64,000 bases of DNA from Candidatus Zixiibacteriota bacterium (GCA_020351995.1 CP070674.1:1261145-1325144); one strand, 5' to 3'; numbered from the stretch's first letter, positions 34,162 to 44,136 are shown. The notes: generated from the sequence alone by a model not told the origin. Numbers and translations: made by a program.

Positions 34162-35370
34162 ATGAAGAACGCAGCCAAGAAAAAACCCCGACCGCGCAAG
34201 AGTAGCGCCCCTCGAGAGGTCAAGCGGGTTAAGGCAAGGGCCGCCTCAACCGATACCGGGCTCGATGCCACGGTGATTGATGCTTCTCCCGTCGGCATCG
34301 TGGCAATAGGGCACTCCGGCCAGCTCACCAGAATAAACCCGGCCGCTCTCGAAGTTTTCGACATCAACCGGGACAGCATTCCCTCACTCGGTTCGAGCCG
34401 AAAAGCAGTTATGTTTCTCGATTTGCTGCCGGAAAGGGAACAGGCGCGGTGGCAGTATATGATTAACCTGGTGATGTCGACCAGAGACAGTTATTGCAAT
34501 GACCGTTTCTTCCACAATACCGGCTATGTCGAAAAAGTGCTCTCAGTGAGGATATCACCGGTAACCACCGGTCAGGATTCGGGCCCGGGACTGGTGATCA
34601 CCGTTGAGGATGTCACCAACAGCGTCCTGATGGAAAAATATCTGATCCTGTCAGAGAAGTTGGTCGCCAAGGGGGAACTGGCTACGTCGATAGCTCATGA
34701 ACTTAACACCCACCTTGACGCGGCCCTGCGCCACGCCGACCTGCTTCCCCTTCAGATCGAGCAAAACCAGTCCGACAAGGTCAAAACAAGTTGCGGCACG
34801 ATTTCCCAGAGCGTCTCCAAAATGAGACATTTTGTCGATAATCTGGTGGATTTCTCCAAGCCACAAACGGAATACATAAGCTACGATATCAAACACCTGA
34901 TCGAAGACCTGCTGTTCTCCCTGCGAATTCAGCCCAGGTTCAGACAAACCCATTTCACTATCGATCTTAGTTCCGACATTCCCAACCTCGATATCGATGT
35001 TGGACAGATTCAGCAAGTATTTACAAACGTGCTCAATAATGCCGCCGACGCGATTGAAGAAAGAGCCATCGAGCACCAGAAAGAGGGCTGTGAACTCAAA
35101 CGGGAGATCGAGATCCAGGCCTCTTATGACAGGATATCAGATACTGTCATGGTCGACATCAGCGATAATGGCGTTGGTATGCCCGAGGGAACAATCGAGC
35201 AGATCTTCGATATGTACTTCTCCACCAAAAAGAGCGGCCACGGGCTGGGACTGTATAACTGCCGTAAGATCGTCGAGCAACACAATGGGGATATCTCGGC
35301 CCAGTCAACCTACGGCGAGGGATCGACTTTCCGAATCACTCTCCCCCGTACTCAGCCTCACACCAACTAA
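34162..35370 (+). CDS. PAS-domain histidine kinase, soluble
   Basis: The 402-residue protein has a basic N-terminal tail (KKKPRPRKS) and a PAS domain (about 35-150). The phosphoacceptor His is in SIAHELNTHLDAALRH, and the ATPase domain has N-box NVLNNAADAIEE, G1 DNGVGMPEG and G2 KSGHGLGLYNC. No membrane segments are seen, so it senses a cytoplasmic signal. No response regulator is adjacent downstream; the NtrC-like protein upstream could be a partner. Confidence 0.92.
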   Translation: MKNAAKKKPRPRKSSAPREVKRVKARAASTDTGLDATVIDASPVGIVAIGHSGQLTRINPAALEVFDINRDSIPSLGSSRKAVMFLDLLPEREQARWQYMINLVMSTRDSYCNDRFFHNTGYVEKVLSVRISPVTTGQDSGPGLVITVEDVTNSVLMEKYLILSEKLVAKGELATSIAHELNTHLDAALRHADLLPLQIEQNQSDKVKTSCGTISQSVSKMRHFVDNLVDFSKPQTEYISYDIKHLIEDLLFSLRIQPRFRQTHFTIDLSSDIPNLDIDVGQIQQVFTNVLNNAADAIEERAIEHQKEGCELKREIEIQASYDRISDTVMVDISDNGVGMPEGTIEQIFDMYFSTKKSGHGLGLYNCRKIVEQHNGDISAQSTYGEGSTFRITLPRTQPHTN

Positions 35371-35396: not shown

Positions 35397-35424
35397 AAAA
35401 AGGCAGGCCACATGGCCTGCCTTT
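35397..35424. terminator. Bidirectional terminator: PAS kinase (+) and peptide cassette 7 (-)
   Basis: A perfect 8-bp stem GGCAGGCC/GGCCTGCC with loop ACAT is flanked by five A on the left (a T tract for minus-strand transcripts) and TTTACTT on the right. It closes the peptide array and the convergent kinase gene. Confidence 0.8.
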
Positions 35425-35460
35425 ACTTAACCGGAGGTCGTCAGACTAACTGCTGTGATC

Positions 35461-35532
35461 TTACCCTTCGGCCCCATAACGCGACGGGGCGATACGGGCC
35501 TCAAGCTGCTCGATTTTAAGTTTGTAATCCAT
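35461..35532 (-). CDS. Microprotein of the LEARIAPS family, copy 7
   Basis: A 23-residue peptide starting MDYKL, with core LEARIAPS at residues 10-17 and tail RYGAEG. It is the last unit of the array in transcription direction. Its leader lacks the clear Shine-Dalgarno sequence seen in most other copies (only TTTGGA 11 bp upstream), so translation may be weak. It has the shared promoter motif at 35595-35622 and its own terminator. No Cys is present, so disulfide or lanthionine chemistry is excluded. Confidence 0.75.
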   Translation of the reverse strand: MDYKLKIEQLEARIAPSRYGAEG

Positions 35533-35594
35533 TTTGTATTTCCAAATTTGTGAGTCTCATCATATTTTCAAAGAGCTTCTCCGTTCTCACTTCC

Positions 35595-35623
35595 CTTATT
35601 TGAACTGTCCGGGGTTTCTTACA
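35595..35623 (-). promoter_or_regulatory. Array promoter motif, copy 7
   Basis: TGTAAGA, 14 bp, CAAATAAG on the minus strand. The -10-like part ends 62 bp before the start of copy 7. The spacing is identical in all seven copies. Confidence 0.8.
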
Positions 35624-35682
35624 CCATGTCTATCGTATTCTCTGAGGAACAATGGCTGAAACTACACAACTCTGTTACCCAT

Positions 35683-35711
35683 AAAAAAGGGCAGGTAGCA
35701 TCCACCTGCCC
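35683..35711 (-). terminator. Terminator of peptide cassette 6
   Basis: Stem GGGCAGGT/ACCTGCCC (8 bp) with a seven-base loop, followed by six Ts on the minus strand. Confidence 0.85.
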
Positions 35712-35734
35712 AGCTACTTCGCGATTTCGCTTGA

Positions 35735-35806
35735 TTAGCGGCTCGAGCCGTACTTCGACGGGGCGATGCGGGCTTCAAGCTCTTCGATTCTCAGTTCGTA
35801 GTTCAT
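35735..35806 (-). CDS. Microprotein of the LEARIAPS family, copy 6
   Basis: A 23-residue peptide starting MNYELRIEE, with core LEARIAPS and tail KYGSSR, the only copy ending in Arg. GGAG lies seven bases before the ATG. In the core codons it differs from copies 4 and 5 mainly at third positions. It is likely a precursor for the upstream PqqD-M50-HlyD protein; that link is inferred from position. Confidence 0.85.
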   Translation of the reverse strand: MNYELRIEELEARIAPSKYGSSR

Positions 35807-35861
35807 TTTAAATCTCCATTACTGCTTTAAAAGAACCTTCTGTTACTGCTTCCACATACTA

Positions 35862-35888
35862 TATTTGGCATTCCCGGGAGTTCTTACA
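35862..35888 (-). promoter_or_regulatory. Array promoter motif, copy 6
   Basis: TGTAAGA, 14 bp, CAAATA on the minus strand, about 55 bp before the start of copy 6. Confidence 0.8.
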
Positions 35889-35943
35889 GATCGTGTCAGG
35901 TTCTTCCTATCTGTTCATCACGGTAAACGTGAATAACAGATAC

Positions 35944-35970
35944 AAAAAAGGCAGGTAGTGTTTACCTGCC
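35944..35970 (-). terminator. Terminator of peptide cassette 5
   Basis: Stem GGCAGGTA/TACCTGCC (8 bp) with a five-base loop and six following Ts on the minus strand. Confidence 0.85.
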
Positions 35971-36012
35971 CAGCTGCTTGCTGTGGTCATTTGACCTTAC
36001 TGTCTTCCCGGA

Positions 36013-36081
36013 TCAGCCGATGCCGTACTTCGACGGAGCGATACGGGCCTCCAGATGCTCAACTTTCAGTTCGTAGTTCAT
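36013..36081 (-). CDS. Microprotein of the LEARIAPS family, copy 5
   Basis: A 22-residue peptide starting MNYELKVEH, with core LEARIAPS and tail KYGIG. The leader is the shortest of the array (31 bp from the -10-like element), with TGGAGG seven bases before the ATG. It is the one copy in which the residue after YG is Ile rather than Ala or Ser. Confidence 0.85.
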   Translation of the reverse strand: MNYELKVEHLEARIAPSKYGIG

Positions 36082-36111
36082 TTCAAAACCTCCATTACTG
36101 CTTTCATAAAT

Positions 36112-36140
36112 CTTATTTGGAGAGTTCAACCTTTCTTACA
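36112..36140 (-). promoter_or_regulatory. Array promoter motif, copy 5
   Basis: TGTAAGA, 14 bp, CAAATAAG on the minus strand, 31 bp before the start of copy 5. This close placement favours a core promoter rather than a distant activator site. Confidence 0.8.
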
Positions 36141-36164
36141 GCTGGTTAACGACCCTGGAGGGCA

Positions 36165-36195
36165 TAAAAAAAGGGCAGGTATCATTAGCCTGCCC
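36165..36195 (-). terminator. Terminator of peptide cassette 4
   Basis: Stem GGGCAGG/CCTGCCC (7 bp) followed by eight Ts on the minus strand. Confidence 0.8.
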
Positions 36196-36235
36196 AGCTG
36201 CTTTATGTGGCCTCCTGGCCTTTCTGGAACCCTGC

Positions 36236-36304
36236 TTATTCCGCGCCGTAGCGGGAAGGAGCGATGCGGGCTTCCAACTGCTCGATTCTCAGTTCGTAGT
36301 TCAT
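36236..36304 (-). CDS. Microprotein of the LEARIAPS family, copy 4
   Basis: A 22-residue peptide starting MNYELRIEQ, with core LEARIAPS and tail RYGAE. It matches the array consensus at every position. CGGAGG lies seven bases before the ATG. Confidence 0.88.
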   Translation of the reverse strand: MNYELRIEQLEARIAPSRYGAE

Positions 36305-36370
36305 CTCAAAACCTCCGGCCTTCGTTAAGTTTAAGTTTTTTAAGAGCGTTTAATTGCTGCGTTCACATAG

Positions 36371-36399
36371 CTTATTTGGCCAGGGATCGATATCTTACA
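36371..36399 (-). promoter_or_regulatory. Array promoter motif, copy 4
   Basis: TGTAAGA, 14 bp, CAAATAAG on the minus strand, 66 bp before the start of copy 4. Confidence 0.8.
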
Positions 36400-36505
36400 G
36401 GTTGGTACAAAGAAATCCTTAAAACGGGGCTGGCGAGGCCAAAAACTACCCCCGGCCCGGGCTATCATAGTGTATCACAAGAGATTACGCGCAGACCGCC
36501 CCGAG

Positions 36506-36538
36506 AAAAAGCGGAGGGCAGGAGCGCACCTGCCCTCC
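36506..36538 (-). terminator. Terminator of peptide cassette 3
   Basis: The longest stem of the array, GGAGGGCAGG/CCTGCCCTCC (10 bp), keeps the shared GGGCAGG core. On the minus strand it is followed by GC and then five Ts. Confidence 0.8.
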
Positions 36539-36576
36539 TGTTGTCCAGATATGGTGTCTAAACCATGGGCAGCTTG

Positions 36577-36645
36577 TTATTCGGCGCCGTACCTGGAAGG
36601 AGCGACGCGGGCTTCCAGCTGCTCGACCTTCAGTTCATAGGTCAT
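36577..36645 (-). CDS. Microprotein of the LEARIAPS family, copy 3
   Basis: A 22-residue peptide starting MTYELKVEQ, with core LEARVAPS (Val replacing Ile) and tail RYGAE. AAGGAGG lies seven bases before the ATG, the best ribosome site among the copies. A longer leader contains a GC-rich inverted stretch. Confidence 0.87.
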   Translation of the reverse strand: MTYELKVEQLEARVAPSRYGAE

Positions 36646-36720
36646 CTCAAAACCTCCTTACAATGTTTACACTCAAAGCAAATAGCCGCCCTGTCGGGCA
36701 GTTCTGCTCTGCCTAATGAG

Positions 36721-36749
36721 CTTATTTGTCCGGGACCGGATTTCTTACT
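36721..36749 (-). promoter_or_regulatory. Array promoter motif, copy 3
   Basis: AGTAAGA, 14 bp, CAAATAAG on the minus strand, about 75 bp before the start of copy 3. Confidence 0.8.
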
Positions 36750-36761
36750 GTCCCAGACAAG

Positions 36762-36788
36762 AAAAAGGGCAGGTACTTTGACCTGCCC
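36762..36788 (-). terminator. Terminator of peptide cassette 2
   Basis: Stem GGGCAGGT/ACCTGCCC (8 bp) with a six-base loop, followed by five Ts on the minus strand. It ends only 13 bp before the next promoter motif. Confidence 0.85.
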
Positions 36789-36828
36789 AACTGCTTTGCG
36801 GGTCGTAAGACCTAACTGATGACCGGGA

Positions 36829-36897
36829 TCAGTCCGCGCCCCAACGGGACGGAGCGATACGGGCCTCCAGGTGCTCGACTTTGAGTTCGTAGTTCAT
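36829..36897 (-). CDS. Microprotein of the LEARIAPS family, copy 2
   Basis: A 22-residue peptide starting MNYELKVEH, with core LEARIAPS and tail RWGAD, where Trp replaces the usual Tyr. TGGAG lies nearby (GGAG, seven bases before the ATG). Aromatic exchange at this position supports a selected peptide rather than a random frame. Confidence 0.86.
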   Translation of the reverse strand: MNYELKVEHLEARIAPSRWGAD

Positions 36898-36953
36898 TTC
36901 AAAATCTCCATTACTGTTTTAAAAGAACCTTTAGTTACTGCGTCCACTAAACA

Positions 36954-36980
36954 TATTTGGCGGAATGTGAAAACCTTACA
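36954..36980 (-). promoter_or_regulatory. Array promoter motif, copy 2
   Basis: TGTAAGG, 14 bp, CAAATA on the minus strand, about 56 bp before the start of copy 2. It is the only copy with G at the last -35-like position. Confidence 0.75.
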
Positions 36981-37021
36981 GCACCCGGAATATTTTTCCA
37001 GTCTTACCTCCTTTCCTGCAC

Positions 37022-37048
37022 AAAAAAAGCAGGCACCAGGGCCTGCTT
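37022..37048 (-). terminator. Terminator of peptide cassette 1
   Basis: Stem AGCAGGC/GCCTGCT (7 bp) with a six-base loop, followed by seven Ts on the minus strand. The stem keeps the GCAGG core of the other cassettes. Confidence 0.85.
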
Positions 37049-37083
37049 CCGAGTTTTCGCAGTTTTTTTAAGCAGCTGGGCAT

Positions 37084-37170
37084 CTAGGCCATTCCGTTTG
37101 GCGCGTCCGCACCATAACGGGATGGCGCGATCCGCGACTCCAGCTGTTCGAGCCGCAACTCGTAGTACAT
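37084..37170 (-). CDS. Microprotein of the LEARIAPS family, copy 1
   Basis: The 28-residue first member starts MYYELRLEQ, has core LESRIAPS and tail RYGADAPNGMA, six residues longer than the other copies. AGGAGG lies six bases before the ATG. It is closest to the PqqD-M50-HlyD gene and is the most divergent copy in both protein and DNA. Confidence 0.83.
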   Translation of the reverse strand: MYYELRLEQLESRIAPSRYGADAPNGMA

Positions 37171-37230
37171 TAAGAACCTCCTGTTAACGTAATTCCATTT
37201 ACATCATACCCCTCAACGGGTCTGAAAGGT

Positions 37231-37258
37231 TTATTTGACCTCACAGCAGATTCTTACA
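37231..37258 (-). promoter_or_regulatory. Array promoter motif, copy 1
   Basis: TGTAAGA, 14 bp, CAAATAAA on the minus strand, 61 bp before the start of copy 1 and inside the 151-bp gap after the fusion gene. Confidence 0.8.
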
Positions 37259-41447: not shown

Positions 41448-41787
41448 GACGGATTACAATCTATTGGGTTTTTGGAATTTGTTCAAGGCTTTATTGGGAG
41501 GGGCAATCAGGCTATCATTTGGGGCCTGGCGAAGCTGCCCGGAACCATCTCGCCGTGAAACCCCTTGTCCCTCAGGCCGTATGTATTATATTAAGAAGGT
41601 CAGCTATTAGCTCCGATCAGTAGCAGCAGATACTTCGATGCCCGCCCCTATCGGGCGTGGCACAGCATGTTTTTTCAGGAAACGCGCCTCAACCGCCCGC
41701 CATTACCGGGAAAACATGATTTCATACAGTATGGTAGTATTCAAATTAACAACGCTGATTCCAGCAGTTCTATCGAGGAGATATTCG
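41448..41787. other. Divergent intergenic region without recognised genes
   Basis: The 340 bp separate the ClC gene from the FG-GAP gene. In-frame codons run upstream of the latter to 41638, but a good ribosome site only precedes 41788, so the upstream part is taken as leader. A GCCCG-CCCCTAT-CGGGC hairpin lies near 41642-41658. No clear promoter or other gene was seen. Confidence 0.5.
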
Positions 41788-44136
41788 ATGTGGAAGATTA
41801 TTGTTCCCGCCGCTATTTTAGCCATGCTTCTTTCAGCATCCAGTGCTTTCCCTCTGGAACCTCTCTTTGAGGCCGGCATCAATTATGCCGCGAATGACGG
41901 CCCACGCTCGGTTTGTGCCGCGGATCTCAATGGCGATGCAATCGTCGACTTCGCCGTGGCTAACCAGCTTTCCTGCGACGTATCAATTCTTATTGCCAAT
42001 GGCGATGGCACCTACCAGGCCCCGGTAAATTACCCTAGCGGTGATTGGTCACAGTCGGTCGCGGCCGTTGATTTCGACGGCGATGGTGATAACGATCTGG
42101 CGGTCGCCAGCTCTGCTCTCGGGGTATCAATCCTCACCAATAACGGTGACGGTACCTTCGCCCCTATGGTTGCGTATGCCGCCGGACTGGGGTCACGCTG
42201 GTTATGCGCGGCTGATTTCGACGGAGATTCAGACTTCGACCTGGCCGTGGCCAATATGGGCTCGGCCGACTTTTCCATATTACTTAATAACGGAGATGCC
42301 ACCTTCTCCACGGCGGTCAATTATCCAGTCGGCACTGAGCCCTTTTTCGTGGCCACCGCTGACTTCGACAAGGATGATGATTATGACATCGTGGTCGTGA
42401 ATGGCTACTCCGACGATGTTTCGGTTCTGCTAAATAACGGTGACGCCACTTACCAGCCCGCCGTCAATTATGCCGCCGGGAGCGGCCCGCGAGCGGTTTC
42501 ATGCACCGACTTCGACTTAGACGGTAACCTCGATATGGCCATCGCCAACTTCGAATCCGACGACGTTACCGTTCTCATGGGCGCCGGCGACGGCTCGTTT
42601 TCGGGCTCGACAGCTTACGGCGCGGCTCATGGCCCATTCGGCATCACTAGCGCCGACATCGATAACGACGGCAACGCCGATATTGTCGTGGCGGCTGAAT
42701 ACTTGTCTATTCTAAGAAACAACGGTGACGGAACGTTCACGCACAGTGCGGACCATGGCGGACCCGGCGGTATAAGTTGCGTAATTTGCTACGATCTTGA
42801 TGATGACGGTTACCCGGACGTGATTATGTCCGGCCAGGGCAGTGATAATGTCGGTGTCCTGATGAATAATGGTGACGGTACCTTCCCGGCCCTGTACCGA
42901 TGCGCAGCCGGTAACGGAGCCATAGATGTCTGCGCCGCGGACTTCAACGGGGACGGGCATATCGACCTGGCCAGCGCGAATTACCTCAGCGACGATTTTA
43001 CCGTCGTCCTTAACAATGGCGACTCCACTTTTGTTGACTTTGAATATTACCGGACAGGAAAGGGCCCGAGCGGAATCACCGCCGCGGATTTTGACAGCGA
43101 CGGTGATTATGACGTTGTTACGGCCAACAGAAATTCCAATAGTTTTTCCTACCTGCAAAACAACGGTGATGCTACTTTCGAGCCCGGGGTCAGGTACCAG
43201 ACGCAGGATCATCCTTTCTCCGTTGAGTCGGCCTACCTTGATGGCGACAGCCATCACGACATCGTGGTGGTAAATCGGAGCAGCAACAGTATCTCGGTTT
43301 TCATCAACAATGGCGACGGAACCTTCCAGCCCGGCGTTAGTTACTATGCCGGAACCCAGCCGCAATTTGTGGCGGTAGCTGATTTCGACAACGACAGCGA
43401 TCTTGACGTAGCCGTAAGCTGCGAAACCAATCTGGCCGCCTTGCTGTCCAACAACGGTGACGGAACCTTCCAGTTTCTGGATTTTATTCAGGCCGGAGGT
43501 GATCAGGCAATCGGCGCCGCCGATATGGACGATGATGGTGATATCGATCTGATCACGGGGAGCTACGTTAGTCCCAATCCTCACCAGGCCTGCGTCGTGC
43601 TCAACAACGGCGACGGAACCTTTCAGGCACCGGTTTGCTATCCCGCCGGTCAGGTCCCGAATGGTATTGTCGCAGCCGATTTTGACGGTGATGGTGCCAA
43701 TGACCTGGCCGTCGTCAACAGGGATTCCCGGGATGCTTCAATATTATTGAACTACGGTGACGCTACTTTTGGACCTGCCACCAATTATCAAGTAAGGTAT
43801 AGCCCGGATGCGGTCATAGCGGTCGACATCGACAACGATAGCGATCTTGACCTCGCCGTAGCTAACAGTGGCTCTGACGATTTATGTATCCTTCTCAACT
43901 TTGGTGGCGGATCCGGCGGTACTTGCTGTGTTCTCCGTGGTGACATTGACCGCAGTGGTCAGTTCAACGTGCTTGATATCGATATGTTTATTAGCTGGCT
44001 TTACCGCTCCGGCGCGGAACCGGAGTGCCTGGAGGAAGCCGACGCAGACGGTAACGGCCAGGCCGATATCCTCGATATCGACTACATGATAGACTACCTG
44101 TATCGAGGGGGCCCGCCGCTGGTCCCGTGTCCATAG
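41788..44136 (+). CDS. Large secreted FG-GAP/VCBS-repeat protein with C-terminal dockerin-like domain
   Basis: From ATG 41788 (GAGGAG eight bases upstream) the protein is 782 residues. A signal peptide (IIVPAAILAMLLSASSAFPL) is followed by some fifteen repeats of about 45-50 residues. They share the pattern of an acidic calcium loop (ADFDGDGDNDLAVAN) and LLNNGDGTF, as in FG-GAP/VCBS beta-propellers. The last about 65 residues form a dockerin type I-like pair of calcium loops (DIDRSGQFNVLDID and DADGNGQADILDIDYM). It is probably a surface or secreted adhesin-like protein. No catalytic domain is seen. Confidence 0.88.
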   Translation: MWKIIVPAAILAMLLSASSAFPLEPLFEAGINYAANDGPRSVCAADLNGDAIVDFAVANQLSCDVSILIANGDGTYQAPVNYPSGDWSQSVAAVDFDGDGDNDLAVASSALGVSILTNNGDGTFAPMVAYAAGLGSRWLCAADFDGDSDFDLAVANMGSADFSILLNNGDATFSTAVNYPVGTEPFFVATADFDKDDDYDIVVVNGYSDDVSVLLNNGDATYQPAVNYAAGSGPRAVSCTDFDLDGNLDMAIANFESDDVTVLMGAGDGSFSGSTAYGAAHGPFGITSADIDNDGNADIVVAAEYLSILRNNGDGTFTHSADHGGPGGISCVICYDLDDDGYPDVIMSGQGSDNVGVLMNNGDGTFPALYRCAAGNGAIDVCAADFNGDGHIDLASANYLSDDFTVVLNNGDSTFVDFEYYRTGKGPSGITAADFDSDGDYDVVTANRNSNSFSYLQNNGDATFEPGVRYQTQDHPFSVESAYLDGDSHHDIVVVNRSSNSISVFINNGDGTFQPGVSYYAGTQPQFVAVADFDNDSDLDVAVSCETNLAALLSNNGDGTFQFLDFIQAGGDQAIGAADMDDDGDIDLITGSYVSPNPHQACVVLNNGDGTFQAPVCYPAGQVPNGIVAADFDGDGANDLAVVNRDSRDASILLNYGDATFGPATNYQVRYSPDAVIAVDIDNDSDLDLAVANSGSDDLCILLNFGGGSGGTCCVLRGDIDRSGQFNVLDIDMFISWLYRSGAEPECLEEADADGNGQADILDIDYMIDYLYRGGPPLVPCP

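Follow-up and report, generated by a model that had tools for sequence, protein, structure and literature searches.

Short peptides with daptide-like leaders, linked to a predicted RRE-M50-HlyD protease-exporter across Candidatus Zixiibacteriota and expanded into a seven-gene array in one genus

Daptides, the closest described relatives of the peptides considered here, are released from their leader by MpaP, which is given as a peptidase dependent on an RRE (the recognition element of ribosomally synthesized and post-translationally modified peptides, RiPPs), and their leader motif, ELExMEAP, numbered to P(-1), occurs near RRE-fused site-2 proteases (PMC10036551). A precedent for one membrane protein combining two tasks is provided by EpeP of the epipeptide pathway, an M50 protease that is thought both to cut and to export (PMC10885120). 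Here we analyze a 64,000-nucleotide stretch of a Candidatus Zixiibacteriota bacterium genome (GCA_020351995.1 CP070674.1:1261145-1325144; hereafter, the window), in which seven tiny genes of one peptide family stand in tandem beside a gene for an RRE-M50-HlyD fusion protein. Together with a kinase gene that is missing from the window's genus, these two kinds of gene form a three-gene module across most of this uncultured phylum, apparently an undescribed variant of RRE-protease peptide processing; the open PubMed Central library, queried for the motif, for PqqD+M50+HlyD and for LEPR-XLL, returned no description of the system, which is weak evidence of novelty.

The array occupies positions 35461-37170 on the minus strand and encodes peptides of 22, 22, 22, 22, 23, 23 and 28 amino acids (aa), every frame starting with ATG and most copies having a GGAGG-like ribosome site. 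Residues M1, Y3, L5, E8, L10, E11, R13, A15, P16, S17 and G20 are identical in all seven peptides (L10, E11, R13 and P16 being carried by the leader sequence MNYELRIEQLEARIAPSRYGAE), the core is varied once to LEARVAPS and once to LESRIAPS, and cysteine is found in none, all in agreement with an earlier sequence-only reading of the window. The further claim of that reading, that selection acts on the peptide, is upheld by the ratio of nonsynonymous to synonymous differences (pN/pS), which equals 0.21 across codons 2-20, a value as low being obtained in 0 of 500 neutral simulations; synonymous substitutions predominate among the copies, and the ratio is 0.12 over the E..LEARIAP motif vs. 0.49 in the tail. 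By profile search, the family is confined to the array locus within the 3.6-Mb genome. Family models yielded zero matches in Pfam (searched with one peptide) and in NCBIfam (all seven, to E=1), and only sub-threshold chance matches in Rfam. A type I toxin was dropped from consideration, as the peptides are charged and not membrane-like.

A search with the 769-aa fusion protein retrieved 13 close loci (47-56% identity), mostly from Zixibacteria or GN15, plus one distant locus from Armatimonadetes. In 12 of the 13, the protease gene is immediately followed by a short gene of this family, and in all 58 close pairs the peptide gene is downstream of the RRE-M50-HlyD gene on the same strand (median gap 265 bp), so that the anticipated linkage to a PqqD-M50-HlyD gene in relatives is borne out. 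Among the 132 Zixibacteria genomes covered by profile searches, 97 have the peptide family and 101 the protease fusion, a number that rises to 106 at a looser threshold, which lets in adaptor-only matches; both are present in 91, the protease alone in 10, the peptide alone in 6 and neither in 25 (Fisher p=1e-13, ignoring kinship). Approximately 109 distinct variants in the 97 genomes retain frame, start and motif amid unrelated flanks. The gene is normally single-copy. Large arrays were seen nowhere but in the window's genus, three of whose genomes have 7, 4 and 5 copies and a fourth, which is partly masked, 1; elsewhere, a handful of genomes carry 2. The seven-gene array is, therefore, a lineage-specific, genus-level expansion of a phylum-wide and normally single-copy gene, and the dosage or combinatorial expression proposed in the sequence-only reading is not the core of the system. 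The Armatimonadetes locus contains a small open reading frame (ORF) with YVEELETRVVP near its RRE-M50-HlyD gene (L023:15097-15381, minus strand), a possible distant relative (E=0.2).

Across the phylum the peptides divide into a leader and a tail that evolves faster. The leader consensus, near-invariant among the ~109 variants, is Y-x-L-x-[IV]-E-x-LE-x-[RK]-[IV]-A-P, with an alternating Y-x-L-x-[IV] segment and nearly invariant L(-12), E(-9), L(-7), E(-6), [KR](-4), A(-2) and P(-1); the pattern used for extracting variants included part of this motif, at the cost of only one profile hit (LEEIIAP). The tail comprises 6-8 residues (mostly 7-8), usually xGxSxGGQ, with G(+2), S(+4), G(+6), G(+7) and Q(+8) favoured; GGQ is present in 64 of 92 variants and Ser(+4) in 65 of 92. 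In the window's genus the tail reads S[RK][YWF]G, mostly followed by [AT][DE].

The adjoining 769-aa protein carries the site-2 protease motifs HEFAH (residues 191-195) and NPLIKLDG (287-294), matches M50 and, weakly, HlyD in Pfam, and has a C-terminal half resembling MacA/EmrA adaptors. Its N-terminal domain is predicted to be an RRE: an AlphaFold2 model of residues 1-90 (pLDDT 87, pTM 0.72) has three strands and three helices, and its top Foldseek matches, with probability well above the rest, are RREs of lasso peptides, in structures that include leader peptides (5V1U, 5V1V, 6JX3). We rely only on this separately modelled domain, since the full-length model has a low pTM (0.46). The locus shows the arrangement expected for a RiPP-type precursor recognised by an RRE, namely a short gene whose product has a conserved leader and a C-terminal part set off from it, adjacent to the gene of a protein with a predicted RRE.

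Comparison with daptides (MpaA and MpaP) revealed both likeness and difference. In both systems the precursors are short and often several per locus, ELExMEAP stands in register with xLEx[RK][IV]AP, and an RRE-M50 protease adjoins; the closest curated NCBIfam model of the protease in the window is the daptide intramembrane protease NF041824 (222 bits, under the cut-off of 300), a weak match to the epipeptide protease model reaching 39 bits. An hhalign comparison places the peptide and daptide leaders in register along 15 columns (P=0.0009), and two Streptomyces plasmids encode, beside MpaP, daptide precursors with the sequence ELEMQELEALEAP/GW (slash, predicted cut). Unlike daptides, these precursors have no C-terminal Thr, no hydrophobic core and a tail of only 6-8 aa; MpaB, MpaC, MpaD and MpaM are absent among the neighbours, the protease carries HlyD, and the peptide gene is usually kept, in a Gram-negative phylum, as one conserved copy per genome. 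Daptide identity was rejected for lack of the C-terminal Thr and of daptide tailoring enzymes among the neighbours and because the protease falls below the NF041824 cut-off. Epipeptides (YydF/EpeX with EpeP/YydH/LiaK) likewise pair a short peptide with an M50 protease, but no radical SAM epimerase was found in the locus, the peptide sequence is unrelated, and the protease here has RRE and HlyD domains. PqqA and PqqD of pyrroloquinoline quinone biosynthesis share the combination of a tiny precursor with a PqqD-like (RRE) domain, which here is fused to protease and adaptor, whereas PqqE is missing; PqqA identity was dismissed, as E-x3-Y is not conserved and no radical SAM enzyme was recognised among the neighbours.

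The LExR core also points to a second comparison, with the giant surface proteins that carry the LEPR-XLL motif (NF012209). On proteobacterial plasmids, RRE-M50-HlyD homologues occur in operons with TolC, RND-type adaptors, HlyD and a gene for a giant surface protein, which in two of these operons is already annotated as LEPR-XLL. Soon after the start, [LMIFY]E[PAS]R is present in 10 of 11 readable giant-protein N-termini (two of the ten, from Cupriavidus and Pseudohalocynthiibacter, were read after the rule was formed) vs. 2 of 423 other ORFs; the sole exception is a 1.5-kb ELWxxDGT gene of Magnetospirillum that appears truncated. The registers coincide (LEPRxLL/S = LEARIAP/S), and in both cases the genes lie beside RRE-M50-HlyD homologues; there, however, the motif heads proteins of thousands of residues, while here it belongs to a free peptide of 22-28 aa and A-P replaces L-L. 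NF012209 matched none of the seven peptides, and its best score in their own genome was 12.7 bits against a cut-off of 17. The passing thought of LExR-type export motifs in the sequence-only reading proved a good lead. These observations suggest that the unexplained LEPR-XLL motif could be a recognition and processing signal for RRE-M50-HlyD proteins. The plasmid loci with RRE-M50-HlyD and TolC-adaptor-HlyD operons (L083, L084, L089, L090, L091, L092, L094, L095, L099, L106, L164 and L165) include giant genes of up to 49 kb with LExR N-termini, Escherichia coli plasmids being among the hosts, and look like an uncharacterised secretion route.

The third partner is a Ser/Thr-kinase-TPR gene, which lies tail-to-tail with the peptide gene in 81 of the 87 genomes having both (median gap 56 bp), a pairing that is kept even in lineages where the protease gene is ~22 kb away or on another contig. 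It is as closely linked as the PqqD-M50-HlyD gene of the sequence-only reading. Genome-wide, it is absent from 4 of 4 members of the window's genus, in which the matches are confined to the kinase domain and do not exceed 89 bits (vs. 640-720). Tails other than GGQ are found in 9 of 10 genomes without kinase-TPR vs. 17 of 86 others (Fisher 2e-5, the clades not being independent). This difference, together with the linkage, points to the kinase-TPR protein as a sensor or modifier of the tail.

Overall, we favour, with moderate confidence, the reading that these genes encode RiPP-style precursors: the RRE would hold the leader, the M50 domain would cleave behind Ala-Pro, and the tail would be exported. 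In this scheme, a leader of ~16 aa ending in L(-7)E(-6)x(-5)[RK](-4)[IV](-3)A(-2)P(-1) would dock, after translation of the precursor, on the N-terminal RRE of the upstream-encoded membrane protein at the inner membrane; the M50 site-2 metalloprotease domain would cleave after Ala-Pro, and the HlyD/adaptor domain would pass the freed tail across the envelope, a piece of 6-8 residues that is of the SRYGAE type in the window and xGxSxGGQ in most relatives; export would presumably be completed by an outer-membrane channel encoded elsewhere. As LEARIAP lines up, position by position, with the leader motifs that RRE-M50 proteases cut, this conserved segment is probably not the business end of the peptide, and the short tail is the probable product. 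We infer leader binding from register and profile similarity to daptide leaders, where the step that depends on MpaB no longer proceeds in the mutants L(-7)A and M(-4)A (PMC10036551). Its main support is that in each of three settings a protein of this kind goes together with a motif of this kind, an association that does not prove the cut position. The exported tail would more likely be a house-keeping signal than a weapon or bacteriocin, since leader and tail are conserved phylum-wide, in one copy, beside the kinase-TPR gene; the window's genus has lost the kinase and amplified the gene to up to seven copies with their own promoter-like motifs, the tail having changed to S[RK][YW]G. For an uncultured phylum, the module supplies a candidate for a conserved peptide signal or product, along with a probable protease-exporter and a candidate receptor or modifier.

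Several points weigh against this reading. The hhalign probability of the leader alignment is just 23%, as expectable from 15 columns, and the mutations made in daptides bear on the RRE of MpaB rather than on the one in MpaP (PMC10036551). Tailoring enzymes were not recognised in the conserved neighbourhood, a result that covers the neighbourhood genes, and should the tail carry no modification, the term RiPP might be misapplied. The locus holds no dedicated outer-membrane or ATPase partner, and the ten genomes with protease and no detected peptide, as well as the six of the reverse kind, are attributable partly to incomplete genomes. The system is known here from sequence and predicted structure, and the argument for signalling consists of conservation and the kinase-TPR linkage.

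Among other explanations, a modified or scaffold product (a true RiPP with distant tailoring enzymes, the kinase-TPR protein acting as modifier, e.g., through phosphorylation of Ser+4, or a scaffold of the pearlin type that is trimmed by M50) would account for the frequent Ser(+4), for the kinase-TPR linkage and for the different tails where the kinase is missing, and M50 proteases do act in pearlin and epipeptide pathways (PMC10885120). We consider it unlikely, as the array persists in the window's genus without the kinase, the relation of tail type to the kinase is confounded by clade, and no PEARL, radical SAM, YcaO or LanM-type gene was recognised beside the peptide. It is also conceivable, if rather improbable, that the peptides are not precursors at all but free-standing leader mimics, ligands of the RRE by which the M50-HlyD exporter is regulated or primed for further LExR substrates. 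Such a role would agree with the leader being the most conserved part, with the LExR starts of giant proteins beside homologous exporters and with the finding that a leader supplied in trans functions for daptide enzymes (PMC12338566); it is at odds with the conservation of the tail itself over most of the phylum, and neither another LExRIAP-type protein nor an above-threshold LEPR-XLL match was found in the genome.

Multiple copies with their own promoters in the window's genus, and the bioactivity of daptides (PMC10036551), could be taken as signs of a bacteriocin or immunity array of seven related antimicrobial peptides, an explanation rendered very improbable by the single conserved copy over most of the phylum, the missing hydrophobic core, the purifying rather than diversifying change of the tail and the fact that no immunity gene was seen. 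Flanking motifs and terminators were duplicated together with the frames, as would be the case if the latter were by-products of a duplicated non-coding element; we give this practically no credence, for it is refuted by a pN/pS far under neutral and by the conserved variants that keep the frame across 97 genomes despite unrelated flanks. Returning to the precursor reading, we would add, as a speculative and rather doubtful extension, that LExR-x-A-P, LEPR-x-LL and daptide ELExMEAP may be one substrate code of RRE-M50 membrane proteases, joining RiPP leader removal to giant-surface-protein export, a code that Zixibacteria would use for a phylum-wide secreted signal, xGxSxGGQ, with the kinase-TPR protein as its receptor, and that the window's genus, having lost this receptor, multiplied a changed peptide.

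Each array gene (Table 1) is preceded by a two-part motif, TGTAAG-N15-CAAATA, at constant spacing (7/7, one copy AGTAAG), and followed by a hairpin and T-run (7/7); a strict scan found 9 terminator-like sites vs. 1.9 expected. Of the exact matches in the 3.6-Mb genome, six belong to the array, and the only one outside it has a different spacing; the pattern is not a chance element, as motif and spacing recur upstream of the peptide arrays of two congeneric genomes. The motif does not match the sigma-70 consensus, of which a scan found no instance, and is possibly bound by an alternative sigma factor (its spacing being ECF-like) or by a dedicated regulator. The description of each gene as a full transcription unit holds for the presence of motif and terminator at all seven genes, and as to transcription it is a proposal from sequence motifs.

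Table 1. Features of the array and its partners (window coordinates unless a locus is named; slash, predicted cut)
Feature	Position	Strand	Sequence or remark	Basis
Precursor peptide gene 1	37084..37170	-	MYYELRLEQLESRIAP/SRYGADAPNGMA	frame + profile match
Precursor peptide gene 2	36829..36897	-	MNYELKVEHLEARIAP/SRWGAD	frame + profile match
Precursor peptide gene 3	36577..36645	-	MTYELKVEQLEARVAP/SRYGAE	frame + profile match
Precursor peptide gene 4	36236..36304	-	MNYELRIEQLEARIAP/SRYGAE	frame + profile match
Precursor peptide gene 5	36013..36081	-	MNYELKVEHLEARIAP/SKYGIG	frame + profile match
Precursor peptide gene 6	35735..35806	-	MNYELRIEELEARIAP/SKYGSSR	frame + profile match
Precursor peptide gene 7	35461..35532	-	MDYKLKIEQLEARIAP/SRYGAEG	frame + profile match
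RRE (residues 1-90)-M50 site-2 protease-HlyD/adaptor fusion, 769 aa	37322..39631	-	predicted leader-binding protease and exporter	
Promoter-like motif, gene 1	37232..37258	-	TGTAAG-N15-CAAATA	
Promoter-like motif, gene 2	36954..36980	-		
Promoter-like motif, gene 3	36723..36749	-	AGTAAG variant	
Promoter-like motif, gene 4	36373..36399	-		
Promoter-like motif, gene 5	36114..36140	-		
Promoter-like motif, gene 6	35862..35888	-		
Promoter-like motif, gene 7	35597..35623	-		
Terminator, gene 1	37025..37050	-	hairpin + T-run	
Terminator, gene 2	36767..36788	-		also strict scan
Terminator, gene 3	36513..36538	-		also strict scan
Terminator, gene 4	36173..36195	-		
Terminator, gene 5	35949..35971	-		also strict scan
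Terminator, gene 6	35689..35711	-		also strict scan
Terminator, gene 7	35399..35424	-		
PAS-histidine kinase beside array	34162..35370	+	conserved neighbour, role unproven	
Ser/Thr-kinase-TPR protein, ~990 aa	L012:10643-13597	-	orthologues across phylum	

The seven motif sites (35597-37258) are array-specific and genus-wide. The single genes of relatives (L010, L011, L012, L013, L015, L016, L018 and L019) have a TTGAC-type promoter and a very strong AGGAGGTG site upstream; their 5' untranslated regions are hairpin-rich by eye and unrelated in sequence, and a common fold was not found among them. The histidine kinase beside the array has no GAF domain, while its orthologues in relatives are longer and include one. 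Further along the window, positions 41638-44136 encode a protein with many NNGDGTF-type repeats (FG-GAP-like by eye) and a dockerin-like end.

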